This document shows positions 7,870 through 51,453 of a stretch of 51,468 nt of DNA, in pieces. The stretch is from assembly GCA_024741835.1 (NCBI GenBank), contig JAENRP010000277.1, positions 4,693 through 56,160 of the forward strand, in the 5' to 3' direction. How positions within the stretch are numbered: position 1 is the first letter of the stretch; the number at the start of each line of letters is the position of its first letter. Source of the stretch: Diplocarpon mali (taxonomy: Eukaryota; Ascomycota; Leotiomycetes; Helotiales; Drepanopezizaceae). The notes beneath the pieces are model-generated. The model saw only the letters and a program-made list of their open reading frames with translations. It did not search any database and was not told where the DNA came from. The position numbers were made by a program, and so were the translations under genes.

Positions 7870-8019
7870 ACTCGTAGGGTAAGACTAGGAGTCAATTTTC
7901 CTAAAAGCGTTCCTTTATAAGATTATATAACTTAACTTGCGGTCTAGGCCTAGGAGTCGATCTAAAAAACTTTCCTTTATAAGACTATATGACCAGACTT
8001 ATAAGGCAGGCCTAGGAGT
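7870..8019. repeat. Three 23-nt palindromes in copia-R 3' region
   Basis: Copies at 7870-7892, 7935-7957 and 7997-8019, between the pol end and the 3' LTR. They are variants of left arm ACTCGCAGGCC, one central base, and right arm GGCCTGCGAGT. The same three occur at 35056-35078, 35121-35143 and 35182-35204 in copia-R copy 3, with nearly the same spacing (65 and 61-62). Confidence 0.85.
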
Positions 8020-8039
8020 CGTCCTTAAGCCTACTAAGC

Positions 8040-11000
8040 CCTTATTGTCTTTTGTAACCTTAGTATATCTTGAAATGCTTCGAACTTTACAATTGTCTCT
8101 AATAGCTTTATAAATCTATCTGCTACTATTCGATCGGTTAGGAAATAGGTAATTAATAACTTATTCTTTATAATAAGGTCGCAGATAAAGTAGTAAGTAA
8201 TATTAATATATTTCGATCACTTATATAAGTATAGATTCTTTATAAGTGCAATTGCCCTTGTATTATCTGCTTAAAGATTAATACAGTTCCTATCTTATCT
8301 AATATACTTAGCGAAACCTATGTCTTTTAGAACTTAAGCGATTTATAATCCTTACTTACAATTTAATAAAATTAATATATATTCGGCCTTAGTGCTTATA
8401 ATAGCTATTAATTTCTACTTCCTACTTCCTTATAATATAGGTTTACTATATAGTACTACTACGCTTTTAGATATACTTTTCCGATCTTTTATATTTGCTT
8501 AATTAGAATTAGTATATACCTTAAGCTTTGCGCTTATATATTTCATTAGTCTATATCTTACCTTTTATATAATTATTAATCAAAGGTACCTTTTAAGTCG
8601 CTTAATTGCATTCTTATATTAAATCGTCAGATCCTTTAAGTTTTAATTAAGTTACCTAGTAATAAAGGTAATATCTGGTCTTATATATACTATAGTATAT
8701 ATAATTACTCCAATATCCTATTAGTACTTCTTCAAATCTCCTCTCTACTTATTTTCATTAGCAGGCTCTAACTTATTATACTTTCCTTTGATTAGAGTAT
8801 ACTTTGGCTTAAAGTTAAGAGTATAAGTAGAGAGTCCTATTCGTTCTAGGATCTTTTTAATATACTACTCTTAATCTAACTAGAGTTCTTAAGTAAAGCG
8901 GTTCCTTATAATACAAATGCTAAAGATCTTATAAATTCCCCTTAGATCCTTAATATTAAAATGTTTCTAAATAGTTATAAAGAACTAATTTAATTAAGTA
9001 GTTGTTTTTATAACTATAGTAATATCATCGATATATAGTAGCAACTTGATTCTACACTTAATATAGGTAAATAGATAAAGGTCAGCTAGGCTTTAAACAA
9101 ATCCTATTTCCATTAAAGTAGAGCTATATAAGAGGTTCTAATTATAAGCTGATTATTTAAGCTTATAAATACTGCGGAGTATATAGAGAGAGTAGCTAGC
9201 ATATATAGGAATACTATTAGGTCGGGAGAGAAAAATCCGTTCCTTTATAATCGCTTTAGTAAATGCATTTTCAATATTATACTATCTACATTTAAGGTTC
9301 TTAGCAGCTATTATTACTATAAATATATAAAGGGTATCTATACGAACTATTAGTACAAATATATCAAAGTAGTCTTCTTTATACTATTAGAAGAAGCCCT
9401 TAGCTATAAGCCTTGCCTTCTAACGTTCTAGGGTCTTATTTATATATGTCTTAATTATAAAGACCCACTTCGTTAATACTAGGTTCATATCCTTTAGTAT
9501 TAGTTCCTTTATCTATATGCTATTTGCAATAAGAGAGCTTATCTCCTTTTAAATTGCCTTATTCTATACTACTCTATTCTTTAGATTATTAATAGCTTTA
9601 TTATATATCTTTAGAAGAAAGATTTCATTATCCCTTTAGCAGCTAAGAACGCATTATCTTTATTAAAGCTCTATTAAAGTTCGAGCTTATAGATCCTATA
9701 CGCTATTATAGCTTAGATACGCTTAGACTCGCGTTTATCTAAAGTGTCTTCTAATTCTAGGTCTTTATTCCTCTTTAAAAGCGTAGGTTCAGCTATAGGT
9801 TCTATAGGCTTATTATCTAAGGAACCGTTTTCTAATAGTAGAGGCTTATTATTACTAGTACCTATTTTAGCAATATCCTTTACTATAAGTACTTTAATTA
9901 AAGGGATAATAATATTAAAGTTATTCTATACTTTAAGTAGTTCGCAGATAATAGGAATAGTCTATTCGGCCTTTAGGCAACTAATAGGTCGTCGATCAGC
10001 AGGTACGCTTAATATGCCTAAGCTAAAAGAGAGGGGTTATTAGTTCGGCTTAATAGTATTACTATTAAGTAGTATACCTTGCGAATCTCTAGATATATAG
10101 AGCTTTAAGGATAGCTCTCTCCTATTTTAAGATTCGTCGAACTTAACTATTAAAGATATAACTACTTACCCTAGATTTAGCGCATATACTATCTATTGCT
10201 TTATTATCTATTTAATATACTTAATAAATATATATTCTCTACTTTAGTCTATTAGCTTCTTGCTCTTTATACTTATAAGTTAGGACTTTAGGCTAATATA
10301 AGAATAGCAGATGCTTCTAAAGATATAAATATAATCTAAGCTTAGTTTCTATCTGAAATATACCTTATATAGCGATATTCAAGTGCTATTAACTATTAGT
10401 CTACTACCTATTCTATTTCGCAGGTATATATCTGCTTTAATCGCAAGGTCTTAGAATTCCAATAGTAGGTTAGTATCTTATAATAGAGCGCGATAATCAG
10501 TCTCTGCTTGCTAAATGCTTTACTTAGCGATGCTATTCTAATAGGAACCTTTATATATTATAATTAGTTTATAATAAACTCCTTATTTTACCTATTTGTT
10601 AAGCTTTGCCTTAATCTCTAATACATTATTAGACTTAATAGCTATTAGCTTTAATTAAGTCTAGCGTTCCTCTATCACTTTCTAAGTTTCTAACTTTTCT
10701 ATAAGCTTAGATTTAATCCTAGCGCAAATGGTTTATATTTATTAAATAGAGTTATCTACTATTTAAGAAAACTAATTATTTCCTTTAATTAAGATTATAA
10801 AAAGTCTAGCAGTATTAATAGATATTAGCGCTAGTATCGAATCTTTCTATAGACTAAGCTTAATTTGCGTCCGATTTCAAAGTTTTATTAGCTTGCAAAT
10901 TCGGCATACTAGGCGATCCTTTAGTACTTAGATCTTCCGTTTTAAAGTTAAGACCTTATATAAGCCCTTTAATTTCTCTAGCCCTAGATGCGCGAATCTT

Positions 11001-11120
11001 CTATATATTAGCTAATACCTTAATAGGCTTTCGGCTTTTAATAGCTTTAATAGCCTATTATCAGTTAATACTTTATTATTAGCAGCTAGAAAGGATTAGT
11101 AATAGCAGTTTAAGGTTTTG
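8040..11120 (-). pseudogene. copia-R pol: integrase, reverse transcriptase, RNase H (degraded)
   Basis: The pol part of the copia polyprotein. Landmarks on the minus strand: integrase zinc finger, RRFAHLGLEKLKGLYKV at about 11015-10965 followed by CRICK near 10900, giving the H-H-C-C pattern of the pre-integrase domain; RT catalytic box LLLYIDDITIVI near 9045-9010 (family Y-V-D-D, both Asp kept); RNase H end with ADNTRAIALIKN near 8275-8240 and YINITYYFICDLI near 8200-8165 (family D-N-Q-G-A and K-H-I-D-I-R-Y-H-F). The frame is full of TAA/TAG. Open plus-strand stretches at 9744-10043 and 11118-11450 are shadows on the opposite strand. Confidence 0.88.
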
Positions 11121-11129
11121 CCATTTTCT

Positions 11130-11416
11130 AATCGTAGTCCTAGCTTAGGAGTCGATTTCCTAGAAATGGCAAGATCTACTCGCAGTCCTAGTTTAGGAGT
11201 TATTTCTGCGAATTTCATTTGCGATCCTAGCCTAAGAGTCGTTATTGGCGAATCTGCAGAATCCACTCGCGGTCCTGGCCTAAGAGTCATTTCTGCTAAA
11301 TTCACTTATAATCCTAGCTTAAGAGTCCATCTATTCTTCTTATCCTCACTTAATTATATTAAGGTAAAGAGTGCACTTTCCTTAAAGGAATCCACTTATA
11401 AGTCTGGCTTAGGGGT
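11130..11416. repeat. In-frame array of six 23-nt palindromes upstream of copia-R integrase
   Basis: Copies start at 11130, 11178, 11217, 11265, 11304 and 11394. The spacings are 48, 39, 48, 39 and 90 bases, all multiples of three, with an 87-base higher-order period. Both strands stay open across it: minus frame with T-P-K-L-G-L-R-type repeats, plus frame with T-R-S-P-S-L-G-V-type repeats. It lies between the protease region and the integrase zinc finger of the polyprotein, so it would have been a repetitive linker in the protein. Confidence 0.88.
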
Positions 11417-11949
11417 CAATTTCTATAATATTACCTTTAAGATAATATAAAGTCTATCTTTGATTTTAGCCTTAAAGATCACTTTATAATTATTATTTAT
11501 AAACTATATAAATTGATTATTAAAAACTCTTATATAATTCAACTCTATATAGATCTTGCAGCTAAATAAAAGATTAATACTTAGGCTAGGTATAAAGAGA
11601 ATATTTTGCAAAAGGAAAGAAACGCTAGTAATATTCATTTCTACTATACTTATTGAGTTTGTATATAACTTTCTACTACCAACCTTAATAGAGCGCCTTT
11701 TTATTTTAATAAGCAGGCCTTTAAATAGGTAGGGTTTATTAATTATATATGCTATATAACTAGTATTACTATATTAGTTAGATTTAAGGATCTTATAAAG
11801 ATCGGCTTTTAAGATATAAGCATCTTTATTATAATTATCATCTAAATTATTAAAAGTGGATTTAGGTTTAAATAACCTACTATTATTATTAAAGGTATTT
11901 GCTAAAGTTTTAGCTAAATAGCCTTTTCTTTTGCCTTTCCTTAGTAATT

Positions 11950-14459: not shown

Positions 14460-17018
14460 ACTGCGCTTGCGCAGTTGTATCTATAGGTGTATTATCCTTT
14501 AGGTCCTTATAATCGTCAACTCTATTGTTATATGACTTAAGCCAGCTTGCTAGCGCTTTTGGTAGCCCTTTAGCTTAAGGGTTCTTTAGATGGAAATCTC
14601 GAATAGCATATAGCGCTATTATAGCTTTAGAGCACTAGTACTATTTAAGGTCTTTATTAGCTCCCTTTTATTTAATTTGATATTTGAGCTTCTTAGCTCG
14701 AATATAAGATCTGATTACTTCTTCTATCTCCTATTTCTCTTATTCTAGCAGTACTTTAATTAGGGTAGGAGGTTCCTAAGCTTGGCCTAGTAGAGGGTTA
14801 GGAATGTATTTATGTAGTAAGTGTGAGTAGAATATAAGGTAGATCGAATAGAGCGAATTAGGTAATTATAGCTTTTAGCTTTCTCTTAGCTTTTCTAGTA
14901 CTTTTACTAAGCCGTACTACTTATCGGAGAGCTTTCGGCTCGGCCGGTCCAGTTTCTAATTTTTAATGCTAATTAGTATATTATCTTTTATAGTCTAATC
15001 AAATGGCTGGTAGTAAAGATCTGCAAGCTATTTTATTTTAGCCTATTATACTTAAAGAGATAATTAAGCGAATTAGACTTCTTTTTAAGCTCTAATAGCT
15101 ATATAAAGCGCTATTTTACGATTTAATCTCTTGGTTGCTATTTATAAAGGCTTTAGGTTAATTAAATTCTAAGAGGAGCGAGCTTTGTAGCTATTTAGCA
15201 CTTGGAAAGGGGAAATTTTCCCTAGGGATTTGTAAAGTAAAGTTAATTAAGCAATATCTATTAAAAGTAAGAGACGACTTTAATTATCTTAGTAGTATAA
15301 GTAGAATAGTTTAAGGCGTTATTTTAAGTATTAGTTTATAATCTTAGTTTAGCTATCGATATTAGGGTTATAGGCTATAGTTAGCTTGACCTTTATACTT
15401 AGTATCTAATAGAGTTCTTTTTAAAAGGAAGAGACGAATTAGGCGCCCTTATTTAATAGAATTGAATCGGGCATATTAAAATAGCGTATTTAATGAATTA
15501 AAAACAACTCTATAAGGCCTTTTGCATTAATTGAATTATGGTATAGAACTGAAACTGCCTTCTTTAATAACCTATTAATAATTATAAGGGCGAAATCATA
15601 ACTGAGTTTATTAAGCAAAAGCTTTATAAAATCTATTATTAAGTGTTAGTATACTTATTTAGGAATTGGCAAGGGTTATAGGAAACTTAGGGTTTTATTA
15701 TAATAAGCTTTTATTTTCAAATAACAATAGTATTAAATATAAGTGCCAACGTTGCTGCTAAGGCTTTTCTAATAGTATTTTCTTCTTATTAGAAGCCTTA
15801 TTTTCCTGATTCTAGTGTATGCGACGCAAAGTTACTTATATATATAATAAATTAAGGCTATTTGTAGTTTAAGAGGTTATAATAGTATAATAAGTCTACC
15901 TTAGAAGAAAAGTTTGCCTTAGCTAAGTTTATAGTTGAGGCTATAGCTCTATGCCTTATCTCGGAACTTCTATAGCTTAAAGGAGGTCTTATTAGCTTAA
16001 ATGACCTTATCGATAGTATAATAGTTCGCTACATTATACTCGACCTTAGATATTAAGTCGGCAAGTGCCTTTATTAGTGCGATTGGCATAATCATCACTT
16101 ATAGGCTAGGCCTAGGAGTGGAATTAATCTGCGCTAAAGTCGCTTATAGGCTAGGCCCATGAGTGGAATTATTTTATAGAAGAGTTACTTATAAGCCAGG
16201 CCCGCGAGTAGAACCGCCTTTAGTAGCAAGTACTTCTATAGAGAGCTTATTATTAGGTAAGAGCTACTAGTAGCGTAAAGCTCGTTTCTTAGCCTTAAGA
16301 GAGGTCAGCTCCTAGTCTTAATATAAGAGTGTATTAGCCAGTATATTCGTTATGCCTATTTGGTATATAATAAGGAAGTTGAAGTTAGCGAAGAACTCCG
16401 CTTAGCAAGCCTACTAGGCTATTAAGTCCTTAATTATTATAAAGTACTTAAGGGCCTTATAATCTATATATACGCGTACTATTTTCTAGGCCTTAAGTAG
16501 CTCTGCCTTATATTAGTAGAACGATTTAAAAATCGCTAAGAGCTCCTTATTATAAATGGGGTAATTTAGCTTAGCGTTATTTATAGTCTTTAAGAAGTAC
16601 TTGATTAGGTAGTAGTTATCGTCTTCCTAGAGTTAAGAGAGTATGCTAGCAACTATGCTATTAAAGGTATTAGTCTTAAGCCTTATCTGCTTTTAAGAGT
16701 AATAGTAGTATAAAATCGGGGTTATTTAAAAGCTTAAGCGTAAAGCTTCCTAAGCTTGCTTATAAGTATTATTGAAATTAAAAGAAACGTTTCTTATAAG
16801 AGCTATTAAAAGTCGGCAGATATAATTATAGCTTTAAATAAACCTTTAGTAGAAGTTATAGAACTTTAGGAAGCTTTATATACTATATATGTTTTTAATA
16901 TATTTCTACTTTTAAATAACTAAGATCTTATTAAAGTCTACTTTAATTCTATAAATGCTAATAATAAATCTTAGGAACTTAATCTTTATAACCTTAAACT
17001 CGCTTTTCTTAATATCTA
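14460..17018 (-). pseudogene. gypsy-B1 pol C-terminal half: RNase H, integrase, chromodomain-like end
   Basis: On the minus strand from the right: the RNase H tail YFIIIKDLIA..ACQAEFFANF (about 16450-16380), typical of Ty3 RNase H. The palindrome array follows, then the integrase core. The core has MDFIELLP-like IIDFIKLLLNK at about 15640, YDFALIIINRLLKKA near 15600-15545 and an AYNPNIDSQTKN segment near 15370. The second catalytic Asp position reads LLNKGA*FVSSF where the family has SDRGPQFVS, so that Asp is now Asn. Near the end, KLDRPSRKLSDK (about 14955-14915) precedes KLKYQIK*KGANKDLK*YQ (about 14690-14630), which fits a chromodomain. Many TAA/TAG stops are present. Confidence 0.87.
16097..16209. 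repeat. Three-copy, 45-bp tandem array of the palindrome in gypsy-B1
   Basis: Palindromes at 16097-16119, 16142-16164 and 16187-16209, exactly 45 bases apart (15 codons), between RNase H and integrase. The same place in gypsy-B2 has a single copy (26995-27017). Confidence 0.88.
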
Positions 17019-26994: not shown

Positions 26995-27017
26995 ACTTGT
27001 AGGCCAGGCCTAGGAGT
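26995..27017. repeat. Single 23-nt palindrome in gypsy-B2 between RNase H and integrase
   Basis: Reads acttgtaggccaggcctagg... Corresponds to the three-copy array at 16097-16209 of gypsy-B1. Confidence 0.85.
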
Positions 27018-35055: not shown

Positions 35056-35204
35056 ACTTATAAGGCGGGACTAGGAGTCAATTTTCTTAAAAGCGTTCCT
35101 TTTTAAGACTATATGACTTGACTTGCAGTCTAGGCCTAAGAGTCGATTTAAAAACTTTCTTCTATAAGACTATATGACTTGACTCGCAGAGCGGGCCTAA
35201 GAGT
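35056..35204. repeat. Three 23-nt palindromes in copia-R copy 3
   Basis: At 35056-35078, 35121-35143 and 35182-35204, orthologous to 7870-8019. Confidence 0.85.
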
Positions 35205-36173: not shown

Positions 36174-36709
36174 TGTGGAGACCTGAGATAGATAGGTCTT
36201 GTGATATATATCATATGATCGGCGCAGGCCGGTAGGAGGATAAAAGGGCCACCTTCTATATATAAAGATAGCGCGTGTCGCTATAGTACTGAATATACCT
36301 TATACTTAGGACTTGTCCTTAATATCTTGTCTAAGAGAGCCCGCTTATAGTGCTTCCTCCTCTTGTTTTTAGGTCTTCCCTTAGGCCTATTCTTATATTA
36401 TCTTATCCTTAAGTTTTATATTAGTGACCTACGCAGGGACCGATTTCTTAAGATTTCCGTCCTTATACGACCTTATCGATCTCTTGGTTTATAGATAAGA
36501 GACCGGCCTTTAAAATATATCTTTGAAACACTTATAGCATTTTAATCAACTTTAAAACCCTTATCTTTAATCGCTTAGTTATTTAGAACTATCGATTTTC
36601 ATTTAGCAACTATTAATAACCTTAGACTTTCCCTTTTCGGCTTTGCTTTAAAAACCCCTATTCTCTTCCTTAACTTTGAGATTTTCGGAATTTTCGGCTT
36701 CTTAGTATA
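36174..36709 (+). repeat. gypsy-D 5' LTR (approximate right end)
   Basis: The left edge is exact from the copia-R junction. The right edge is inferred from tagtata just before the primer-binding site at 36717. It contains TATA-like ggataaaaggg (about 36238) and tatatataaag (about 36271). Only one LTR is present in the window, so its length is not confirmed. Confidence 0.65.
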
Positions 36710-36716
36710 AAAAGTT

Positions 36717-36730
36717 TGGCGAACCCTATA
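36717..36730 (+). other. gypsy-D primer-binding site
   Basis: TTTGGCGAACCCT, a TGG-initial site resembling the TGGCG-type primer sites of many Ty3/Gypsy elements. The tRNA was not identified. Confidence 0.55.
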
Positions 36731-37092
36731 ATAGCAATCTTAAATAGTAGTAGTTTTAAGTACTTAAGTAATACTAAGCGTAAACTCTAATCGGAAGTGC
36801 CTCTTTAGAATCCTTAGAAATCCGAATCTGATAATTTAGCCGCTTTAGCTTAATAAAACTTTAAAAATTGCCTTAGAATCGTCTTTAGAGACCCCTTTAT
36901 TCTAAGGACTAATAGGAATTAGCTTAAAGGTTAAGAAGAATCTTAGATATAAACCTTATCTTAGAAATTAGTCCTTGATTAAGTAAACCTTATCTTATTA
37001 CGATTAATCGCAACGCTCCTATTGGCTATTTAGTACCTACTTAAAATCTCTTAGCAAACTTAGATTAAACTTTTAGCAGAATCCGGAATTCT

Positions 37093-37115
37093 ACTCTTAG
37101 GCCTGGCCTATAAGT
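37093..37115. repeat. 23-nt palindrome, gypsy-D
   Basis: actcttaggcctggcctata..., 10 of 11 arm bases paired. Confidence 0.85.
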
Positions 37116-38101
37116 AAAAGGATAAAAAGACGTCTTTAAATAACTTAAGACTATTACTTACTTTTTTAATATTAATATTAGAAAACACTAAAAATAATAA
37201 TAATTTTAAACTTTTCACTAACCCTTTATTTAAATCTTTTCAAACTCGTCCTAGTTACTCTAAGATTGACTCAGATTCTGAACGTTTTTTAAGCCCTTTT
37301 GAATTTCGAAGTACTCCTCTTAGCAATCAATCTCGCAATATCGAAGCTTCCCCTTTGCCCTTTATAGATTCTATTAACTTAGACAGTTAGTATGAAATAA
37401 TAATAGCCATATTTAAGGCTATTACTAGTCACTTTCCCCTCTTTAGTTCCCTTAGTGCTTCTTACTTTATAGGTGCTAATATTACTAATTTCCTTAAGTA
37501 ATATAAGGAAACTTATTACGATTTTAGTATTATATAAAAGGATATGATTTCTCAACTTCCTTGCTATTATAACTATATAAGCAAAGATATTATCAAATCC
37601 CTCCTTAAATGGAAAACGCATAGTTTATAGGAACTCCTTATTAAGGCTCTTAAGTCTGAATTCTAAGAATTTGATAGATAGCAGATTCGCAATACCCTGG
37701 CTTTCTTAAAGGAATTTGTTCTGGTCACTTATACTCCTAAGGAACTTAAAAACTACTATCGGACTTTTACTTATATATCGAATACCTTGATTAGCTAGAA
37801 AATACTTAATAAAGTTAAAAGAGGCCGCCTTTTCTTACTCGGATTACCTACTAGCCTTTGAAATAAGATTATTAAGCATTTTAAGATCGATAAGTAAGAC
37901 CTTATAACCTTCGCCTTATTTAAGGAATTCTTAGCCTTTGCTTTAAAATCAGATCTTAATAAGAGAACTATTAATGCTATAGAGTAGGAAAAAGCCCTTA
38001 CTCCCTCTTATATTAAAGACCTTAAGAGCCTGGTCTAAGAATACTCGAAAGCTCTGGAAGTTATAGAAAAGGTAAAGAAGAACCTAGTAGTTATACCTTT
38101 T

Positions 38102-38124
38102 ACTCGCGGGCCTGACTTAGGAGT
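38102..38124. repeat. 23-nt palindrome in gypsy-D gag
   Basis: actcgcgggcctgacttagg..., read in gag frame as T-R-G-P-D-L-G-V. Confidence 0.85.
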
Positions 38125-40017
38125 AAGATCTAACCCTAGAATTGAGGAACTTAAGACCTAATTTATAGAACTCTAAATCTAAAGCTTAGAAACTAGGATT
38201 AATAATCTCTTATAGGAAAAATAGCATATTCTTTAGTTTGGTAATAGATAAAACTCGGCTACTATAAGCCAACTTAGTAGTTCCTATTATTAGACTCTTG
38301 CTTTTTATCATTTAAAACAACTAGCTAATATAAGAATGTAATAGCTGGCTAAAGAAGGAGGAATTAATCCTAACTAGCACTCTGCTAATATTAATGCTAT
38401 AGGGTATTAAGGAAATGGCAATAGAAGACGATTAACCTGCAACTTTTGCAATAATAAAGAACCTAATTGCACTTTATATAAGTATTATAACGATTGCCCT
38501 CTTTTCCTTTGTTTTATTAATACTAGGGTTATATATATTAATAAGTATAGGATGCTTTGCATTAGGGATCCTAGGCTAGAAGCTATTCCTATTAAAAAGC
38601 ACTAGAATCGCTTATGGTTATAGACTATTCGAATAATGATATATAGTATAAAATAGGACGAGAATTTGGTCGAACGATAGTATATTATAGATATAAATGC
38701 TAAAATCCCAACTTATATATATATAAGTCTAATTAGCAATCTACTTAAGGGAGTTCTTAAGGACCTAGCTTTTAATTAAATAGTTATAGAAGTTAGAGGC
38801 ATTTCTATCTTAGGATAGGTTAATAATAATATTTCAGCTGATATTAATACTACTTCTATATTTAAGAACCCTTGGAATTCTTAGCGTCTTTTTAGATCTT
38901 CTACTCTACTAATACTAATAAAACCAGCTAAAGTCCAGAAATCAGCATATGCAATTTAGGAATCTTAATATAGAGTCTAAATGTTAAAAGACACTTAATA
39001 ATCTGGAACTGCAGTAGATAAGGATAAAGCCGATATAGTAGATAAATTAATTAGAGATATAATAGATAAAGATGGCTTTAAGCTTAAAGATTAAGAAGTT
39101 GAAGTTATTGCGCAGACTTCTAACCTTAAGCGAAAGAGATAGATATTAAAATAGGAAAAATTTATTAATAAATACGCTAGTTCAACTGCAATAGAGAAAG
39201 CTATAGAGAATATTATAGCCTAGCAAATTAACCTTATATTTAAAGACCTATTTAGTTTGACTGGACGCTTTAATAAAGTGCTAAGAAAGCATATCCTAAT
39301 AGCTTTTAAAGATTTGAATAATAATAAGGAAATGGAAATTGTAATACGAAAGAACTTTAAGAAGCACTTAGCCTTAATTAAATGTCTTTAGATTGTAGAA
39401 AACGAAGGAACCCAAAGGTACTATAATATTATAGTAATAGCTTTAATATCTTAGAATATTAATTGAAATTGTTTAATAGTTGTAATAAAAAGCCCTATTA
39501 TTATTTGTTTAATAGAAGAATTAGTTAAAGCAAAGGCTTTAATTGATTATAGTTTAGAAGTTAATATAATAACTAGAAAAGTGGCGGAAATGGCTTAATT
39601 GATAATTGTTAGCGATCGACTCCTTATTTATTCGACTATCTTTAGATTGAAATACAATTTTAATAGATAGGTAAAAAATATAAAGGTTAGAGTTAGAGGA
39701 ATCGTTAATTATATTAACTTTCTAATAATAGAGAATTCTTCAAATGATATTCTTTTAAGAATACCTTTTATTTTAAAATCTTAGCTAATATTTAACTATC
39801 TTAGAGATAGGCTTATAAAAGCTAGCCTTTAAAATATAGATCGATCTTTAGAAGGATAAATAGTTATTATAGGAGATATAGCCGAATTCTAAAATAAGGT
39901 TTTAGGAAACGATTAGCTAGTATAAGGGCTAAGCTTAATACTAGTAAAGGAAGGCACCTAGTAAGGAGTTATAGCAAAAGAAAGGTAAGTTTATCGATTT
40001 TAAATAATAGTGATTTG

Positions 40018-40202
40018 ACTTGCGGTCTTAGACTAGGAGTTAAATCTAGAATTTTGAAAAATAGTACAATTGGTGTTTTATCGGCTTAATAATTAAGAAA
40101 AAAGAAAAATAAGATAGAGAAGAGAGTTCGTTTTATAAATTTCGATAATTTACTAATTATTTTAAAAAACCTAAAAACCACTTATAAGCCGGACCTGCAA
40201 GT
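40018..40202. repeat. Two 23-nt palindromes between gypsy-D protease and RT
   Basis: At 40018-40040 (acttgcggtcttagactagg...) and 40180-40202 (acttataagccggacctgca...), 162 bases apart, a multiple of three. Confidence 0.85.
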
Positions 40203-42146
40203 GAAAAATAATAAAATTACTAATAATATTTCTATCTATGCACTTTAAATTGATAACTTAGAAAATCTTTTATTTGTTTTTAAAAAGGAAAATTCGAATC
40301 GTTTTATAAGATTTGATAAAAAAGGAAAGAAGTAGAGAAGTATAGTACTAGCTAATATTTAAACTATATATAAAAGCAAGGCTGATAAAGTACAACTGGT
40401 GGATTAGGGAATCTTTAATAGCTTAAAGCCTAGAGGACTAGATGATTGGTTTGAATAAGATAAGAAGCTTCGACCTTTAAAGCTAGGTGGCAAATTCGAT
40501 AAGTTTATTATAGGCAGATTTTCTAATAAACCTATCGGATATCGACTAATAAAAGAACGTTTCAATATATTAAAAATTAAAGAAGACTTAATAAAGTAAG
40601 AATGCAAACTACTTTATAAAACCTTAATAAATCGAGAGGACGCCTTAGCTTTTAATTAGATAGAACTTGGCCAGATTTGAGAAGAGGTTACGCCTTATAT
40701 TAAGATTAAGATAATACCTTATAAAGCCTGGCAAGAGAAAACATTTAAGGTCCTTAAAGCTCTTTAAGAAAAGGTAATCGAAATATTAAAGGATAGGCTA
40801 AAGCAAAGTGTTTTCGAGTTCTGTAATAGCCCTTATAGGAACAAATGGTTCTTAATTATTAAGAAGGAGAAGGGAACTTATAGACTAATAATAGTAGTAG
40901 TAGAGATGAACTAAGTAATTGTTAAAGATGCTAATATTCCTTTGAATATGGATAAGTTCTTAAATGAATTTGTAAGATTAACCTATAGCTCTCTTATTAA
41001 CTTCTTCTTTAAATATGACTAATTCATTTTTGATATTAAATTAAGAGATATAATAGTAATTTAAACCCCTCTTAAGCTACTTCAGATAATAAGATTACCT
41101 TAAGGGGCTATAAATTCGATCGCTTAATTTGTTTAAGTAATCTATAAGATACTAGTAGATTATATACCTAATATTGCGCTCCTTTATATAGATGATATAG
41201 GAGTAAAAGGATTAAGATCATTCTATAACTATAAAGAAGTTCTCCTTAGTATATAACGATTTCTAATAGAATATATTTAAAACCTAGACCAAGTGCTTAT
41301 ACAATTCGAAAGGGCAAGAGCAATAGTTAGTCCGAAGTTATAATACTATCTCCTATTAATGGAAATTGTTAGTTTCATTACTAATTCCAATAGCCGAAGT
41401 CCTTAGAGGGCTAAAGTACTTAAAATCGACAAATGGAAGAGGTATAATAATATAGTAGAAGCTTGCGCATTTATTAGAATTATAGTATACTATCGCATTT
41501 GGATTAAGGATTTCGCTAAAAAGGCAGCACCTATTTACTCCTTATTTTAAAAAGGGGCTGAGTTTCAGTAGGAGAAACCTTAAATAGAGGCTATAAAACA
41601 ATTAAAGTAAGCATTACTTAAGGCGCCTTATCTAATTAAAATAGACTATAGAGCTAACGCTAGGCTAATTATACTAATAGTTGATATAAGCTTAATTGGA
41701 TAGGGTGCTATCCTTTAATAAGCTAATAGCTAGTAGAAAAGATATCTAGCTTGCTTTAAAAGTAGTCTTTAGAATCCAGTGGAAATAAAGTATAATACTA
41801 TTAAATAGGAATGCAAAGGCGCTTTAAAGGCGATGAAAAAGATAAGAAGCGACCTTTATAGCACTTACTTCATTCTTAAAACTAATGCTAAAGTACTAGT
41901 AGAATAATTAAATAAAGCTATAAGCAACTTATTAAGAGCCTTACTAATGAAATAGATTACTTAAATAAGACTAATAGACTTTGAAGTCAAATATATTTTA
42001 AGAATGAAAAATACTGCTACTAATAGCCTTTTAAGAAGAACTCGGCCCTACCCCTTTGATTTGATTAAAGAAGATGAAATAGATATTAATAAGTAGGTAG
42101 AAAACGAAGTTAGTTGTCTATTAATATATTACCTTAAAGGGATTCG

Positions 42147-42169
42147 ACTCGCGAGCCTAGCCTGCGAAT
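42147..42169. repeat. 23-nt palindrome at gypsy-D RNase H/integrase linker
   Basis: actcgcgagcctagcctgcg..., read here in a different frame (R-L-A-S-L-A-C-E) from the usual one. Confidence 0.8.
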
Positions 42170-43581
42170 TAAATAAGAGAATTTTATTACCTAACTACTT
42201 AGGTAACTCTAAAGAAATTGCGAAGTTTTTAATCACACTTAAACAACTAAAGATAGTTGCTCTTAAGGATTTTTAGAAATTCAAAGCTAAAGCTCTGATT
42301 TATCTAATATAAGGAAGACGATTATTTAAAAGGAGCGATAACTCATTTCTTATATAACTCTGCTTAGATAATAAAAAACTAAGGGCTAAGGCTATTTAGG
42401 ATATTTATAAGGAAACTGGCTACTAAGGAGCTAAGTCTACTTACTATTAACTCTTGAGAAAATTCTTTTGGAAAGGCTCTTTTAAGGACTGTAAAGCTTT
42501 TGTAAAGAGTTGTATCCCTTATTAGAAACGAAAACCTAATTATAAGGAAAATCCCTTATTCCTAACCTGGCTATTAGGCCTTTTCTATAAAGTCAGCTTT
42601 AATATTATATAAGTACTAATTATTAAAAATAGGATAATATATTTTATTCTAATAAAGGAAGACCTATTAGGATAGTCTAAAAGACGACCTTTAAGATCTA
42701 TTAACTTTAAATCTATTGCAAAGTTCCTTTAAGAAGACGTAGTCTATTGCTATAAACTTTTTAGCAGATTAACTATTAATAGAGGCCTTAAAAATAAAGG
42801 AGTAGTTAAAGCTTTCTTATAAAAATATAGTATCAAATGGGTTTAAATCTTAGTATATAACTCAAAAGCTAATAGAGTGATAGAACAAGGATACTATAAC
42901 ATTCTTAATAGTCTGTCTAAAGTTATTTACAAAGGATTTAAGGATTAGATAAAACGCTTTTATAGAATACTCTTTGCTTATTAAATGATAATCTATAAAC
43001 CGACTGGAATTATACTATTTTTCCTTATCTATAGCAGAGAGGCATAGCTCCCTTTTAAATCCTAATAGCCTATTTAAAGATTGTTTAATTATAGTCAAAT
43101 TTGGAACCGTTCCGATTTACTTGCAATAAGATGCTAATAACTTAAGCTTTAAGATATAGATATAAAGGAAATCATTTTATAAAAGAAATAATATTAGGAA
43201 AAAGCTAAAGAAGCATAGGCTGCTTCTAAAGTACTTAAAATGTACCTTATTTGAAAAGATAATCTTATCCTAGTTTATAATATTATAAGAAGTATTAATA
43301 TATTAGTAGATACTAAACTTAACTATTAATAGCTTAGTCTATTTAAGGTTAAATCTAAGTAGAAAGAAAAGGGATATTATTCTCTTTAGGAATTTGATAG
43401 AGTCGATATTAAGGGAACCTTTGCAGCTAATTGATTAAAGCGCTTTTATTAATGCAACTAGACCTTATTCCCTTTAGAAGACGAATTAGAAATTGATATA
43501 ACCTCCGAATTCTTTATAAGAACCGACGGTAATATAAGCAATTTTAAACCCTTAGATAAAGACTAAGATTTTTCTAATTTA

Positions 43582-43604
43582 ACCTATAAGCCGGTCTTAT
43601 AAGT
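43582..43604. repeat. 23-nt palindrome near gypsy-D pol C terminus
   Basis: acctataagccggtcttata..., usual frame T-Y-K-P-V-L-*-V. Confidence 0.8.
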
Positions 43605-43694
43605 AAAGAATATTAAAATACTTAACTAATTGCGACCTTAAGTCATTATTCTTAAAATATCCGAAGAATGCAAGTAGGAATATTAAACGATTTC

Positions 43695-43998
43695 TTAGCC
43701 TATTAATTATCTTACCTTCCTTTAATCCTTATTTTTACATTTTCGGCAAGGTCGCCTCCTTTATTATTTAAGATATAAATCTTTTAAGATTACTTTAAAT
43801 TCTTATTTACTTTAACTTATTTTACATTCTTAATATTAGCCTTTAATTATAATATTCCTATTACTTTCTTTAAATAATAAATAAAAAGTCCAATTTCCTT
43901 AATATATATATAGTAAACCTATTGCAGCTTATATACCCTTTTAATTCTTATACCCTATTAAACTCTCTTATTTATACTACCTATCTTTTATAAATAAT
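43695..43998 (+). other. Pyrimidine-rich intergenic stretch before ORF X
   Basis: About 300 bases, strongly T/C-rich on the plus strand with tatatatata near 43905 and ataaataat just before the ATG at 43999. Similar in character to 47396-47870 before ORF Y. No LTR or polypurine tract is seen, so it may hold a promoter for X. Confidence 0.4.
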
Positions 43999-44844
43999 AT
44001 GCCTTTAAAGAACTTATAAATGGTTTTATCTATTATAATAGGGGATAAATAAGCACTGGTTATAAACTTCTTTTAAGATAGTAGAGCTATTACATTATTA
44101 GAGAGCTTTAAATCGACCTACGCAGCTTTAAGAGATATAGAGTAATAAAAACTCCTTTTAGCTTACGCGAATGCTATTAGTAACCTTTCAACTTAAGTGG
44201 CCCTTAGAATTCTCTAATTTGACAACTTCCTAACTAAAGAATTAAGACTAAAGGGAATCTTTAAAAAGGAATTCTTAGCTAATGCAAATTAATATATAAC
44301 CTTGGCTAACACTTTTAAAATAGACTAAGATAAAAGAGAAGAATCTATTTAATAATTAGATAATTTAGCTACTAATAAGAGAGGACTCTTATTTTATTTG
44401 CGCTTTCTAATAAATATTAATTCTAATAATAGAAGACAAGTATTATTAAAAATTCTTAAGGAAAACACTCCTACTACTAGAGCTATTCAGATTCTTAATT
44501 TCTTTATTATTTAAGAAGCAGTAGTAAAATTCTAAGGCAATCGAATTCGCAGTTGCAGATTTATAGGCCTATCTAATATAGTACTTATAGTAGCTAATAG
44601 GGCTATAAAAAGATCAAATTAGGCTATAGATATTATCCTACTTAATAGTACTATTATTAATATGCTAAGGCTTTGCGCTTCTGCTTATAGTTTGCTTATT
44701 TTAAGAGAAAACTGGACTCTTATAATAGGATTTAAATAAGATTTCTTTAATAATAAAGAAGGGAATTAATTATTTATAATTAAGCCTGCTTTGAAATTCG
44801 CTTCTTAACCTAAAGATATAATAAGTGCTAAACCACGTGATTTG

Positions 44845-44867
44845 ACTTATAGTCCTAGACTAGGAGT
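44845..44867. repeat. 23-nt palindrome in ORF X (site 1)
   Basis: Read as T-Y-S-P-R-L-G-V. Matches the site at 48768 of ORF Y. Confidence 0.8.
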
Positions 44868-46230
44868 TAGAAATGAGAATTTTAAAACTAGACCTAACTT
44901 GCCTTTTATTAAAATAATTTTAGAAACTGCTGCTAAACAAACTGCTTAAACGCTTAGCGCAGCCTCTTTGGAATTTTCAGAATCTTTAAGGGACTCTCCT
45001 TTAGCTAAATGACCTATTTTAGCTTAACCTTTAAAAAGGATAGATCGTTTAATAGCTACTTTAGCTGATTTGCAATTTAAAACCAAAGGATTGCGCGCTC
45101 GCTTAAACTCCTTTCTTAACAACTTAAAGGAGCTAGTTCTTGACTTCTTTATATTTATATATAACCGTTTTAGAAATAATAATATAAGGGAAGACCCTAT
45201 TCCTACTACTCTAAAGATAATTAAGAGAGCTATTAGATAGATTCAATAGCTTATCTTAGATAAGTTTGCCTCTATAGATATTATTTAATTCTTTAATAAT
45301 TATAAAAGTCAAGAACCTAGTCTCTTAAATGCTAAGCGAGACTATTTTATCTTATAAGAAAGAGAACGCAAAGAGGAATCTATTAATTAGGATATTTATA
45401 ATTATAGTAATATGCTTCAATCGGTCATTCTCAACCTTAAGCTTAAAGAACGATATAACATTTAGGTATCCTTTATAATAAAGACTCGCTTTCGACAGTA
45501 TCTTCCTAGCGTAGGAATCGAAGGGAGAAGACTTTGCAACCTTTATATTCGCTCTCTTTCGATTTACTATAGTCTTAATTATAAAGGATTTGATATTAAT
45601 AAAACTATTAAATACTTCGAACTTCTTTATATAGCAGAAGATATTGATCTTTTTCTAATCCACCTTAATAATTAGTTCTTTATCTTTTTAAGGATATGCA
45701 AATCTAACCTATTAATAATAGAGGCATCTTTAAGTATTATAAAATTCAAGGCTAATCCTAAAGCCTTAAAGGCGTTAGAGCCGATTAAATAGAATAATTC
45801 TTTCTTTTCGATATTATTAAGTAATAAATAGTAAGAGGAAATAGAAGAAGAAGGGTCAATTGTAATACCTAAATCCTTTGGATACCGCTTCCTAACTGAT
45901 AATTTTACTACTAATAATAGTGCTTTTATAAGTATATTCCTCTTTATTATAAGATAAGAAGTAGAGATATACCTTTATTACTTCTACCCTATGGATAACG
46001 CAACCTTTATACCTTCTTATTTTCTTTATAATATGATATTCAGCCTTATTTAACAAGTCCTTTAGATATATTATAGACTCTACCTCTCAGCTATAATAGT
46101 AAAAAGTAAAGGAGCCTATTAGCTTATAGCCTACCTTAAACCTCCTTAATTAATTGGCTTTAGTCTTTATAATTAAGTTGTTTTAATAAAGAGAGATATA
46201 AGTGCTGCTAATAAAGAAATTCCGATTTTT

Positions 46231-46253
46231 ACTTACGGTCCTAGCCTATAAGT
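46231..46253. repeat. 23-nt palindrome in ORF X (site 2)
   Basis: Read as T-Y-G-P-S-L-*-V. Matches 50174 of ORF Y. Confidence 0.8.
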
Positions 46254-47115
46254 CAATTTTATTAAAAAGCAAGTCTTAGATTATTAGATCCTATTAATCG
46301 GATAAGGGCCAGCTTCTAAAAGCCTTAATAGGTAGGTCGGCTCTTAATCGATTATAAAACTCACTCTATTTATAAAGAAGATAAGTCGATAGACTTCTTA
46401 AGCACTTGGTTTAAAATCTTAATTAGCTTAAATGATTGCAAAGTTAAAGCGAAAGGAGATCTTGCGACCTATTACTAATAATAGCAATCTAATTATAATA
46501 ATAATGAAATAGAGATACCTTTTTAAAATGCTTTTAAATAATTCTTATAGGACTAGTGGTTTTATAGCCTTTTATAATAATTATATAGTCATCCTTGATA
46601 AGAATACCTTAGAAAATAAGACTCGAATCTCCGATTTTATCTTTTCAGTCTTTACTTTAAAGTAACCTCTAGTACTTTAATAGATTAATGCAAGTAGAAC
46701 TACTGCACCTTTTAAAGCAGCTTTTCATCTTAAGAACTGCAGTAGCCTCTTTAAAGCTATTATTAGTCGATGCTTTTAAATAGATCCATCGGTTATAATT
46801 GAAGTATAGGAGTTGTTTCTTCTTAATAAAGACGAATTGAAAATCTACCTTATAAAATATAATTAGAAGCTCTTTAACGCCCTTATTAAGGCCTAGACGA
46901 ATATTATAAATACTAAGTCGCTTCTTTATAGACTTAAGTCTTAAGGATAGCGCGATAAAGTAAATGCTATTTAAAAGTCTAATATACTAATTGATAAAGG
47001 TATTATTATAAGAAAATTCGGAAAAGAGATAAACCGAGACTTTAGTATAGTATTAGACCTTGATTTAAGAACCAATCTCCTATTTTTACCTTTAAGCTTA
47101 GAAACGCCAAGACTG

Positions 47116-47138
47116 ACTTGCGAGCCTAGCCTGCGAGT
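47116..47138. repeat. 23-nt palindrome in ORF X (site 3)
   Basis: Read as T-C-E-P-S-L-R-V. Matches 51006 of ORF Y by position near the C terminus. Confidence 0.8.
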
Positions 47139-47395
47139 AAGGTTAAACTTGGCTGGCTTAAGCCTATAAGATAGTTTGGATGAACCTTAGTTATCAAATC
47201 TAGAGGTATTAATAAAAGATCCTTTAAGAGAGGTCCTTGAAGCTGAGAAATCGCTAAGAAATAAGAACTAATGCAAGAGAAGAAGACTCTAAAGTAATAA
47301 TAGAATTAATAATTAAGTTAACTTAAGCCTAGAGAATCGAGTCTACTACCCTCCCTTTTAAAAACCATTTAAAGAGATTGCGAATTAGAAGTTGA

Positions 47396-47870
47396 ATTTT
47401 TTTAAGGATTATCTACTTTCTATATACTTGTACCTCTTTATTCTTAACCTATTATTCCATTTTATATATATTCTTTATTTACTTTACTCTTTATATAATT
47501 TATTCTTTAATTATTCCCTTTATATACAACTTTCTAATACTTACCTTTGAAATATCTTCCTTACCTTTGATAATTGTCATTTACCAATTGTGGGTCCTTA
47601 TATGCGTCACACCCTACTTTTGTTCCTACTTCTAAGCTTATTATGCCTACTTTTCCTATATATATTAGTGCGATTTCAAACTCTATAAATAAGCCTCTCC
47701 TTGCACTACGATTTTACTTTTTTTACTTTTTCTATAACCCTACCAGACTTATAATACTAGTACTACTACTATTATCTTTTATTATTAATCTTTTTTAGTA
47801 TAAGCCTCTTATATTATTAATCTTTCTTAAATAATTATCTCTTCATTTAGAACTACTCCCTCTTATTAAA
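47396..47870 (+). other. Pyrimidine-rich intergenic stretch between ORFs X and Y
   Basis: T/C-rich, with ctataaataagcc near 47680 as a TATA-like site and cttttttac runs near 47720. The open plus-strand stretch 47574-47798 is low-complexity (Phe/Tyr/Leu) and not supported as a gene. Confidence 0.4.
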
Positions 47871-48767
47871 TAATTTATTATAATACTACTAAGCTTAAGT
47901 AAAAGAGCTATACTTAAGAAGAATATATTAATTATAGCTTTAGGTAGCAAACCCTTAAATACTACCAATAATGAACTAATGTTAAAAGGTAACTTTTCAT
48001 AGGATAGAAAAGCTTTAAGATTATTAGAAGATATAATAAGCACTTATAGAACATTAGGTGAAATAGAATAGTAAGTATTCCTAAACTCATTTATAAAAGT
48101 ATTGAACTATAGAATTTCTACTATAGAAGAAGGATTTTTAAGCTTTAATGATTTTCTTAAGAATGAGCTTAAGATAAAAGGGATCGATTATGAAAAATTT
48201 CTATAGGAATATTAAGGGTATGCTAATTTAATAGATTTATTTTAAAAAAATCGAGATAAGAAGAATAAGTGTATAAAAAGATTATTATAATTTATAAGTA
48301 GTACTTATAGTACACTTTTCCAAACCTACTTTATAACTAATATTACTACTAATAATACCCTATAGAGGCTTGGCAAAATCTTTGAAATATACTAACCTAT
48401 AGCAAAGGCTATATAGGTATTAAATTATTTTACCATTTAAGAAGGTATAAAAAAGCTATAAGGAAATAGTATTAAAGGTAGAAAATTTATTAGGTTCTTA
48501 AGTACTATTATACATTCTACTATTTAAACTATAAAAGATGAACCCTTATAATATGATAATTTTGCACTTTCTAATTAAACTATTTTAAATACACTTAGCC
48601 TTTAATAGTCGCAATATAGTCTACTTATTATAAAAGAAAAGATGACTTATCTTATTAAGTATACTATGAATTACTTTAATAATAAGTTAGAGAGATAGGA
48701 GTTTGTTATCCCTATTACTTTAAAAATGCTACTACCTTTAGTAGGAATAACTGATAAAGAGAATTTA

Positions 48768-48976
48768 ACTCATAGGCCTGGCCTATAAGTGGAATCAGTA
48801 TATAAGGAGAATATCCTTAAGCTAGAGGTGCCTATAATACTAGGAACTTAAGTAGCTAACCTACTTGACTATTATTCCTTTAACTTAGACGAATTTGAGT
48901 TACTATCCTTAGAAATGCTTCAAATACCTTGAATATTAGTAGCAAAGAAAATGACTCGCGGGCCTAGTCTATAGGT
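48768..48976. repeat. Two 23-nt palindromes in ORF Y
   Basis: At 48768-48790 (T-H-R-P-G-L-*-V) and 48954-48976 (T-R-G-P-S-L-*-V), 186 bases apart (a multiple of three). The second has no counterpart in X. Confidence 0.85.
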
Positions 48977-50173
48977 TAATATATATAATATTATAAACTT
49001 AGAAGATAAATTATCTAATAAAGAAATAGGTACTATTACTAATATGCTAGAAATTTTTAATAATATTAAGAAGGATACTACTAATATTATACAATCTTTC
49101 CTTAATAATCTGTAAAAATTTGTTCTTAAATTCTATAAGTTAATAATAAAGCGTTTAAGAAAAGAAGGTTAAGGAGAAGTCTTATTAGTATAAGAAGGGA
49201 TAATAAGAGCTATTAAGCAGATTATAAAACTATTATAAGACGAATTTTCTATAGATAATATTATATAGTTCTTTATTAAGTATAAGAAATTGAAAGGTGA
49301 CTTTTATATTCTTAAGGAGAAATCCAAAGTTAATATAAATATTATCTCTATAGAATATTATCAGGTCCCCTTTAATATAAAGATAATACTATAGTATAGT
49401 GATAGTTTTAAGATAGTAGTAATACTAGAAATAAAAATAAGACTTATAAAGTTTATAATAGGAATATTTAAGGACTTTAATTTTGAAAAGTTCTACGCCC
49501 TTTATAAATGCTAATATATATAGTACTATAGATTGGCAATAATAGGCCTTACTAATAAAGATATATTATCTAATATCTATAAATTTTGCACTGCTTCTAA
49601 TCTAACCTTGTTTTTATTATATCTAGGAAATTATGCAATTGTGGCTATTAGCAATAGAATAGCAAGCTAAGTTAAGAAGGATATATTATTAGGCTTTTCC
49701 AAGTTCAAAGTAGCACTTAAAGCCTTTAAATTGTTCTATAATATTGTATAAACCCCTGCCTAGTACGACGCTATACTGACTATTAACAACTTTATATTAT
49801 TCTATAGCAAAGGCTTTTTAAATATGCCTAAGTTGTTTAGCTGCGCCTTTTTAAGCGCTATGCGCACGTATAGTTATAGTAATTATAAAAAGAATTCATT
49901 TTTAATATTAGTATAAGAAGAACTAGAAATATACCAATACCACTTTTAGACCTTAGGTAAGAAGCTAAACCCCCCCTTTGCCTACCTCTATAATATGACT
50001 TATAGCTTAATATAATAAATACTAAGGATATATTATAAATTATACCTAAGTACTCTACTAACTTAATATAAGTCTTTATATAAACTAATAATATATCCTA
50101 AGCCTATATAGTTTATTAGAATTGACTACTACTTAAGAGTTATTGCTACTAAGATTAATACTAATATAAGATT

Positions 50174-50196
50174 TATAAGATTGACTCTTAGGCCTG
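50174..50196. repeat. 23-nt palindrome in ORF Y (matches X site 2)
   Basis: Read as T-L-R-P-G-S-R-V, just after the conserved YLYNM segment, as in X. Confidence 0.85.
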
Positions 50197-51005
50197 GCTC
50201 GCGGGTCAATCCACCTGATAATAGAACTATTAACTACTATATGATTCTAGCAGCTAAATAATCGATTAGAGAATTTGCTATTTAAGAAAAATCTTATAAA
50301 TTATCAAATCTTATACCCTAACGCCTTAAGAATGCTTAATAGATCTTACTAAATCTGGCTCGAAATGCAGTATAATAGAAAGAATTGAATACTAGAGAGA
50401 AGATACTTCTAAAGGAGTATATCTCTAATAAGACGACTTTATTCTTTATATTTATTAGATAAGGCATATTTATTAATATAGAATCTGCTAAAGAACTAAG
50501 AAAAGGTAGCTTTCTTACTATTAGCAATAACTATATAAAAGTTATTAGCAATAACTTATTAGAGAATAGCATAGACTTAGAAGATTTTCTTATCAATTCT
50601 ATTAGTATAAAGAGACCTAGTACTATAAGATGGAGTATTACTAGAGAATCGTTAGCCAAATTTCATATAACGCTTAGCATAACAAAAGGAGGCCTACTAT
50701 TAGAGGTACTTATAGGGAAACGGCTATAGAACGATCTATTAGTAGTAATAATAGTAAAGGAGTTATTCTTTAAAGATATAACTCAATTGATAATATATTT
50801 AAAGAAGTATAAGTAAGAACTTTTTAATAATTTCACCTATACTTAGAAGCTAATTCAATAGTTAAAGCTATAGCTATATAGGGATAAGTCCTAGACTAAG
50901 ACAAAAGGCATTAATGATAATATCAAGGCTAATAATATAATTAATAAGACGATCCTTTTCGAAAAGTATAGTATTAAGAAACCTTATGCTAAACCCTTTA
51001 ATATA

Positions 51006-51028
51006 ACTCCTAAGCCTGGCCTGCAACT
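51006..51028. repeat. 23-nt palindrome in ORF Y (C-terminal)
   Basis: actcctaagcctggcctgca..., read as T-P-K-P-G-L-*-L. Confidence 0.8.
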
Positions 51029-51116
51029 TATATTAACCAAAGGTAAAGAAAAGGAAGTATTATCTATTAAATTGCCTGCCTTATCCCCTTTTGCAATAGA
51101 AGACTCTCTAAAGGAT

Positions 51117-51155
51117 AATAATAATAATAAAAAGGATAATAATAATAATGCTATA
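51117..51155. repeat. AAT trinucleotide microsatellite in ORF Y
   Basis: Two runs of aat repeats separated by aaaaaggat, encoding the Asn-rich stretch. Confidence 0.75.
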
Positions 51156-51430
51156 ATATAAGTCTCCCTCCTTATTAGCAGAAGCCGTCAAACTATATTA
51201 GTATCTTTACGAAATACTAAAGCTTTTATAATACCGAGACCGGACTCTTCTAATACTAATAGTGAACTATTAAGAAGAAGTAGGCGCTTTATAAAGAGAG
51301 TATTATCTAATGATAGTTCTTCTTATCCCTTAAAGAGAATTAAGGAAAATTGATATCTAGGTTAGTACTATTTTTAATTGTTTTTACAACTCTATAGCTT
51401 GTTTGTTTATTTTGCTAGTTTCGTTTTCTA

Positions 51431-51453
51431 ACTCCTAGGCCCGGCCTATAGGT
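51431..51453. repeat. 23-nt palindrome downstream of ORF Y
   Basis: actcctaggcccggcctata..., in the 115-base tail after the ORF Y stop; non-coding context. Confidence 0.8.

Follow-up and report, generated by a model that had tools for sequence, protein, structure and literature searches.

Palindromic or dyad-symmetric repeats that recur within other sequences are known from several systems, and these provide the background for a 23-nt palindrome that recurs in a 51,468-nt stretch of the genome of the fungus Diplocarpon mali (GenBank assembly GCA_024741835.1, contig JAENRP010000277.1; G000:C277:4693-56160; hereafter the window), where it lies in several families of long terminal repeat (LTR) retroelements. 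As described in the passages of the reports cited here, the Rickettsia palindromic elements are about 150 bp long, and many lie in frame in unrelated open reading frames (ORFs), where they encode a conserved peptide (PMC10969869). A likeness to them was proposed in an earlier, sequence-only reading of the window, and it holds for style: the fungal palindrome also lies in frame in unrelated ORFs and encodes a shared TRxPGPRV-like peptide (where a frame could be given, 26 of 27 copies begin at the first base of a codon, phase 0). It does not hold for size (23 nt, or 35–39 nt with the flanking wings, against about 150 bp) or for setting (a nuclear fungal genome and, so far, retroelements, against bacterial metabolic genes); as to insertion, no empty site was found among the copies compared below. 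The GC clusters of yeast mitochondria are short GC-rich palindromes, some of them in frame (as in VAR1), with short terminal repeats that are taken as target duplications and with polymorphism between strains (PMC8811140, in the part drawn on here). The D. mali palindrome is likewise short, GC-rich and sometimes in frame; unlike these mitochondrial elements, and unlike miniature inverted-repeat transposable elements, it has no target-duplication signal over 27 sites compared by exact matching. PARCEL elements are dyad-symmetric coding repeats, associated in part with mobile elements, that encode 25-residue amphipathic tandem repeats (PMC2996958). Dyad symmetry, coding position and the tie to mobile elements recur here; the encoded product differs, being a Pro/Gly/Arg octapeptide that is dispersed and in short tandems.

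Two further comparisons, again limited to the passages cited, come from retroelements themselves. In the fungal GalEa copia elements, the Conserved Hairpin Site follows the 5' LTR directly and takes the place of the primer binding site; it is made up of two inverse-complementary stretches of 9 nt, and an extended form is common to distant element families in one species (PMC5445492). The D. mali palindrome is also a motif common to distant families in one genome, but the GalEa site is a CTGATCAGT-type sequence at one non-coding place, whereas the 23-mer has another sequence and its nearest copy in the giant element described below lies about 0.7 kb inside the LTR end. Ty1, Ty3 and HIV-1 have palindromic dimerisation sites, and RNA structure is raised where the J and reverse transcriptase (RT) domains of Ty3 join, although the link between structure and domain boundaries, clearer in HIV-1, is much weaker in Ty3 and was not found in Ty1 (PMC11381356). 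Palindromes in retroelement RNA are shared with these systems, as RNA structure at domain joints may be; the Ty3 dimerisation palindrome is a 6-nt 5' site (PMC11381356), as against a 23-mer at many sites. No nuclear family with the sequence of the 23-mer was seen among the open-licence papers listed by the searches.

The palindrome is real, dispersed and conserved in several LTR retroelement families. As to its nature, we tentatively favour a palindromic module of old origin that acts in cis at domain junctions and that has multiplied, with homogenisation between retroelement families, in this genome; it is the best supported of several candidates, and falls short of being a likely one.

Form and abundance of the palindrome

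In its GC-rich form, the palindrome reads ACTC(G/C)CGGGCC-N-GGCCCG(C/G)GAGT. A relaxed pattern, ACTYNYRRGYCNGRCYYRNRRGT with up to three mismatches tolerated, has 34 matches in the window. Four of five dinucleotide shuffles had none and the fifth had one; a reversed control had none. A sequence-only profile found 36 distinct places in the window at E ≤ 0.01 (it was trained on 39 sites; 15 of the 36 places are among these, and many of the remaining 21 are second copies of training sites). Both figures agree with the roughly 36 copies counted by eye in the sequence-only reading, which also gave their span, 7870–51453, correctly. That reading had proposed a comparison of whole-genome frequency with controls. 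In the genome scanned (49.4 Mb in 676 contigs), a strict symmetric pattern has 451 forward matches and a pattern with one variant arm has 304 + 330 = 634 copies, and the controls gave 0 for both. When one mismatch from ACTCGCGGGCC-N-GGCCCGCGAGT is allowed, the genome has 55 forward copies, and each of the 50 places listed has exactly one mismatch. The arms are of two types, A (GCG type) and B (CCT/CCC type), combined as AA' in 451 copies, as AB' (both orientations) in 634 and as BB' in one, the last being a member of a copia family in which BA' is usual; across the three patterns, at least one GCG-type arm is present in all copies but one. When the fetched loci were scanned for palindromes in general, 22 of the 26 GC-rich palindromes found belonged to the 23-mer family. 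Sampled sequence with a GC content of at least 42% had 4 copies in 16.5 kb, which may lie in host genes or in elements.

Beyond each side of the core runs a weak symmetric wing of about 6–8 nt, which reads S-R-A-W-T-Y outward and in which the bias is strongest at positions 1–3, 5, 6 and 8 (91 flanks, with array members not independent of each other). With its wings, therefore, the palindromic unit is about 35–39 nt rather than 23 nt. The smallest tandem spacing is 39 nt (13 codons), and spacings of 45 and 54 nt also occur. The arms around one central base described in the sequence-only reading stand, with the correction that the palindrome is imperfect at most sites (pair 5/19 is standard in 8 of 39).

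Many of the C-to-T and G-to-A differences noted between copies represent decay of the kind caused by repeat-induced point mutation (RIP): relative to a better-preserved copy, the other copies of the main element differ by C-to-T mostly at CpA and CpG, as RIP predicts. Protection of the palindromes from RIP was considered and rejected, since CpG and CpA change at 0.47 and 0.52 inside them, against 0.48 and 0.62 elsewhere; changes at CpC and CpT are rarer in palindromes (0.07 and 0.10 vs. 0.13 and 0.19). The window contains no ORF of at least 150 aa. In DNA so strongly mutated, a palindrome might arise by chance or as an artefact of composition, but this explanation is scarcely credible: GC content and symmetry are highest in the copies with the fewest mutations, and the controls, 0 genome-wide and 0–1 against 34 in the window, rule it out.

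Sites in the giant element and in other families

The right-hand part of the window (36170–51468, forward strand) is occupied by a giant LTR element, truncated by the contig end. The complete element is about 15.8 kb long, with an LTR of about 247 bp and the order LTR, leader, gag, protease (PR), RT-RNaseH, integrase (IN), ORF X and ORF Y; the window copy is 84% identical over 15.3 kb to one at G000:C12:227882-243652 (the C12 copy). With stops masked, the C12 copy matches the Pfam families for protease (PF13650, just below the cut-off), RT_RNaseH and Integrase_H2C2. These protease, RNase H-type and integrase zinc-binding domains identify the giant element as Ty3/gypsy. Counting the query itself, the genome contains at least 52 copies of its pol (of 509 candidates, 52 were scored).

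Across the giant family, 14 palindromes occupy fixed sites. The first of them in the window copy (37093–37115, detected by pattern and profile) lies in the 5' leader, immediately before the earliest ATG that is a likely start of gag, and is treated as non-coding; as an open gag frame continues for some way upstream of that ATG, this copy could be coding, which would make it a second copy in phase 2. One copy lies in gag (38102–38124), and two, a (40018–40040, profile) and b (40180–40202), lie in the PR-RT linker, all three in phase 0. The copy in the RNaseH-IN linker (42147–42169) is in phase 2 and reads LASPAxE, while that near the pol C-terminus (43582–43604, also found by the profile) is again in phase 0. 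ORF X carries X1 (44845–44867), X2 (46231–46253) and X3 (47116–47138), each found by relaxed pattern and profile, and ORF Y carries Y1 (48768–48790), Y2 (48954–48976), Y3 (50184–50206) and Y4 (51006–51028). (The sites in gag, at b, in the RNaseH-IN linker, near the pol C-terminus and in ORF Y were detected by the relaxed pattern.) The last, found by the profile (51431–51453), is non-coding, in the 3' untranslated region (UTR) past the ORF Y stop.

ORFs X and Y had been listed in the sequence-only reading as carriers beside Ty1/copia and Ty3 elements. The palindromes are present in all of these, but X and Y are extra ORFs of the giant Ty3 element: large frames after pol (window about 44000–51400; L018:1586-5056) of roughly 1100 aa. 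They are related to each other (323 of 1070 aligned residues identical, about 30%), and neither has a Pfam match above the cut-off. ORF Y matches only four Diplocarpon coronariae proteins at E ≤ 0.001 among 7989 candidates scored, which makes Diplocarpon the probable host, and at Y1 these four have TRGPGPRV; a profile of ORF Y found no solved relative below E 0.07. A shorter element of about 2.9 kb, at L024:3300-6200 on the minus strand, has LTRs related to those of the giant element, a gag-like frame and palindromes, with little room for pol. Its palindromes are kept at positions matching those of the giant element, and it looks like a non-autonomous derivative.

The remaining palindromes in the window belong to other families, all on the minus strand where a strand could be given. 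Another Ty3 family has three tandem copies with a 45-nt period at 28882–28994, in phase 0 and upstream of an RVT_1 match (about 27779–28217). This array presumably marks the PR-RT linker; a protease was looked for there and none was found. A second copy of the family has two tandem palindromes (33780–33847). In a third Ty3 family, three tandem palindromes with the same period and phase lie at 16097–16209, just after RNaseH (RT_RNaseH, about 16386–16770), with a weak SH3_Tf2-1 match further downstream, a position that would correspond to the RNaseH-IN linker; a second copy of this family has a single palindrome (26995–27017). Among Ty1/copia elements, one has an array of six at 11130–11416, all in phase 0 with a minimum spacing of 39 nt (SH3_retrovirus, below the Pfam cut-off, at about 10126–10348), and another has three at 7870–8019, in mixed phases and possibly non-coding, downstream of a weak RVT_2 (below the cut-off, about 8825–9056). 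A second copy of the latter has three at 35056–35204. A single palindrome at 31260–31282 has no assigned context. (It and the three sets in second copies were found by both relaxed pattern and profile.) In Ty1/copia elements, palindromes occur in the stretch that separates gag from Pol_BBD (interpreted as the protease region), behind the SH3 domain of the integrase and at the 3' end beyond RVT_2. Clustering by flanks placed 159 matches in 23 clusters, and copies outside ORFs have the same sequence as those inside. The spread over unrelated retroelements and coding contexts that was first noted by eye is borne out, extending to gag, pol, ORF X, ORF Y, copia gag-pol and untranslated parts. Just upstream of the palindrome in the copia 3' region (L026-L036, L041-L060), there is also a short tandem repeat, CTCTATTAAGGGGTGA plus a T run, with a variable number of units.

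Constraint, pairing and rival readings

How strongly is the palindrome conserved? Site-copies of the giant element from 17 loci and the window (n = 121) were compared with the C12 copy. An indel was present in one of the 121, and 110 fit the pattern within three mismatches. Transversions affect 10 of 2782 positions in the palindromes (0.36%), compared to 353 of 14378 (2.5%) in the 60-nt flanks (Fisher P ~1e-16). In copia, copies were chosen by the downstream flank of the 3' palindrome (40 scored of 217 candidates; 20 fetched, excluding those already fetched by palindrome), and the palindrome is present in 19 of the 20; in the twentieth (L058), the LTR of a giant element replaces the left arm. 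(At L058:1-181 this LTR ends inside the copia palindrome, a case seen in 1 of 20 copies and with one side visible.) This conservation speaks for constraint or homogenisation.

The count of 26 phase-0 copies among 27 omits three copia-R copies, whose phases are mixed, and three others that were treated as non-coding. It includes tandem copies, which are not independent of one another; within the giant element the ratio is 11 to 1. The only framed copy in phase 2, starting on the third codon base, is that at the giant RNaseH-IN site. Phase 0 encodes a loose Pro/Gly/Arg linker, TRxPGPRV. Descent of all copies from one ancestral protein domain, which had been raised as a way to dismiss mobility, is unlikely, because the copies lie in different ORFs, one is clearly in a second phase and others are untranslated.

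With the number, sites, phase, conservation and sharing of the palindrome across families established, its role can be considered. The grounds for a cis-acting module are the fixed sites at junctions and ends, the similar places in other families and the same sequence outside ORFs; the transversions below those in the flanks and the 120 of 121 giant site-copies without indels; and the fact that some, though not all, related pol proteins allow pairing at two homologous linkers. Such a module, the 23-mer plus wings, would punctuate fungal LTR retroelements at protein-domain junctions and untranslated ends. At some junctions in one Ty3 clade it would probably be of long standing. In the Diplocarpon lineage it would then have reached more junctions of the giant element and entered further Ty3 and Ty1/copia families, while its arms became homogenised from site to site; the simplest route for this is template switching, in reverse transcription, between RNAs packaged together. 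A self-complementary RNA segment, either a hairpin or a dimer contact, may mark the junctions for packaging, dimerisation or domain-by-domain folding, while coding copies would be kept almost always in the phase that gives the linker peptide. The age of the module, the mechanism of its spread and its role in RNA are what we infer from these data. If the module is indeed a shared structure acting in cis, a functional motif would pass between unrelated LTR families within a single genome, and the layout of polyproteins would be tied to nucleic-acid structure.

The evidence from related proteins concerns P0006-P0011, pol homologues that are 48–49% identical to the giant pol and have, at the two homologous linkers, peptides that could be encoded by palindromes with other arms. 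At PR-RT these are LREPGSRR, LPEPGSGR, LPEPGSER and FLEPGSRN; at RNaseH-IN, where the giant element has LASPAxE, they are FLSPAQE, LLSRTQE and LPSPARQ, together with less fitting ones. In P0077, which is near P0009, P..R has become L..Q, and the pair can remain complementary; the centre has changed too. For each relative, the centre and phase used in scoring were taken over from the giant element, the centres being placed by alignment. At PR-RT the scores are 11 for P0006, P0010 and P0011, 10 for P0008 and 8 for P0009 and P0005 (P0007 is short of the site), and at RNaseH-IN they are 11 for P0007, P0008 and P0009, 10 for P0011 and P0077 and 9 for P0006 and P0010. Of these 13 site-instances, 6 allow 11/11 pairs, 3 allow 10, 2 allow 9 and 2 allow 8, against a background, from all windows of 111 pol proteins, of 0.27% for 11/11 and 2.7% for at least 10. 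Coming from few related proteins and from aligned centres, the compensatory signal between elements is suggestive, not established. A wider and more doubtful proposition is that in modules of fungal LTR elements the arms drift by compensatory change between species and are homogenised across Ty1 and Ty3 families within a genome, as a shared cis-acting structure passed through reverse transcription.

A number of results weigh against a cis-acting module with a paired RNA. The arms do not covary within the genome (66.5% of cells are paired, vs. 66.6% after shuffling, over 39 sites), pair 5/19 is unpaired in 31 of the 39, RNAalifold predicted no structure for the palindromes and no Rfam family matched them. 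A one-base centre also makes a poor hairpin loop. Since pairing equals that of shuffled arms and no structure was predicted, it is sequence, not pairing, that is kept within the genome, and a protein-binding dyad or a constraint on the peptide fits the arm data there better than a hairpin does. Homogenised arms and RIP noise would lower the covariation signal; the objection to a hairpin is still real. Third codon positions 9 and 15 have transversions in 4 and 8 of 25 phase-0 rows, and an automatic alignment of X and Y, which misplaces the linkers, has no extra conservation at third positions (7/19 vs. 433/1051); anchored on the palindromes, the figure becomes 3/21 and is partly circular. Among the relatives, the nearest by identity, P0005 (55%), lacks a matching motif at RNaseH-IN, and its score at PR-RT, like that of P0009, is only 8. 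A test with swapped halves gives weak evidence: inclusion of the giant element yields P = 0.017 and 0.038, its removal 0.083 (four proteins) and 0.13 (six), and the addition of P0009, P0005 and P0077 0.003 and 0.057. When other linkers were scanned freely, 41 of 57 had a place that reaches 12/13, so that the scan does not separate the sites well, and the palindromes of the relatives are possible codings, read from protein only. The evidence on the shared RNA hairpin of the sequence-only reading is thus weak and mixed, with some support from related proteins, whereas covariation and predicted structure in the genome speak against it.

The palindrome could instead be selfish, a mini-element of about 37 nt that inserts into retroelement nucleic acid, survives where it is harmless (in linkers and UTRs), multiplies in tandem and has no function for its carrier; it would then be a nuclear counterpart of the mitochondrial GC clusters, living inside retroelements. 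This is possible, if rather unlikely. The identical sequence in unrelated families and outside ORFs would be expected of such an element, as would sites at linkers and ends wherever the context was mapped, and copies are gained and lost in tandem (besides the spacings of 39 and 45 nt, a 54-nt unit is present in L028 and absent from L033, having been gained or lost as a repeat with its linker). However, the mobile or recombinogenic unit proposed in the sequence-only reading has no direct support. No target-site duplication was found over the 27 sites (726 tests, best z 3.0), and no empty site in the 121 giant site-copies or in the 20 copia copies. Alignment ends fall at palindromes in 38 of 1551 cases vs. 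33.1 expected, which is no excess; a recombination hotspot was rejected on this count, the apparent break in L058 being the giant LTR in the place of the left arm. Two more distant Ty3-bearing contigs, L039 and L040, in which palindromes are not above shuffles, offer no clean insertion border, and the linkers of relatives vary in length. Some sites may, moreover, predate the Diplocarpon lineage, and the single phase common to nearly all framed copies also weighs against a selfish element.

That phase counts in favour of a repeat at the level of the peptide, with TRxPGPRV as a flexible linker or protease site, copied as coding DNA, and the palindrome as a by-product. The places, which resemble gag, gag-PR, PR-RT, RNaseH-IN and integrase-end junctions, would suit it, as would the independent variation of the arms within the genome and the rarity of the BB' form, which has no arginine codon and occurs once, vs. 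451 AA' and 634 AB'. Yet the giant RNaseH-IN copy is in a different phase and gives another peptide, the 3' UTR and copia 3' copies have the same sequence outside ORFs, and four of seven third codon positions (3, 6, 18 and 21) are without transversions in the 25 phase-0 rows (array rows not being independent), compared to 11 of 25 at the centre, and we consider this explanation unlikely. Less probable again is that a dimeric protein binds the palindrome in DNA or RNA and requires at least one canonical half-site. Such a binding site would have the dyad symmetry and free centre that are seen, the GCG-type arm on at least one side in all counted copies but one, and the retention of sequence rather than pairing; but no candidate protein has been put forward, the related proteins suggest different arms elsewhere, and the many sites inside ORFs would be left unexplained. 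On balance, we favour the cis-acting module over the selfish mini-element, that over the peptide linker, and the protein-binding site last.

Neighbouring sequences and database matches

A match of the palindrome in a viral contig (L038) was judged by eye to be a chance match in a GC-rich contig, and other searches of viral contigs gave no palindrome matches. L039 and L040 are filed as bacterial, under a Beijerinckia mobilis record and a Bacteroidetes metagenome-assembled genome (MAG) record, respectively, and encode Ty3-type gag-pol, which is probably contamination of these records. Within the window, positions 29863–29956 and 30286–30379 form a 94-nt direct repeat (86%), the two copies being 423 nt apart.

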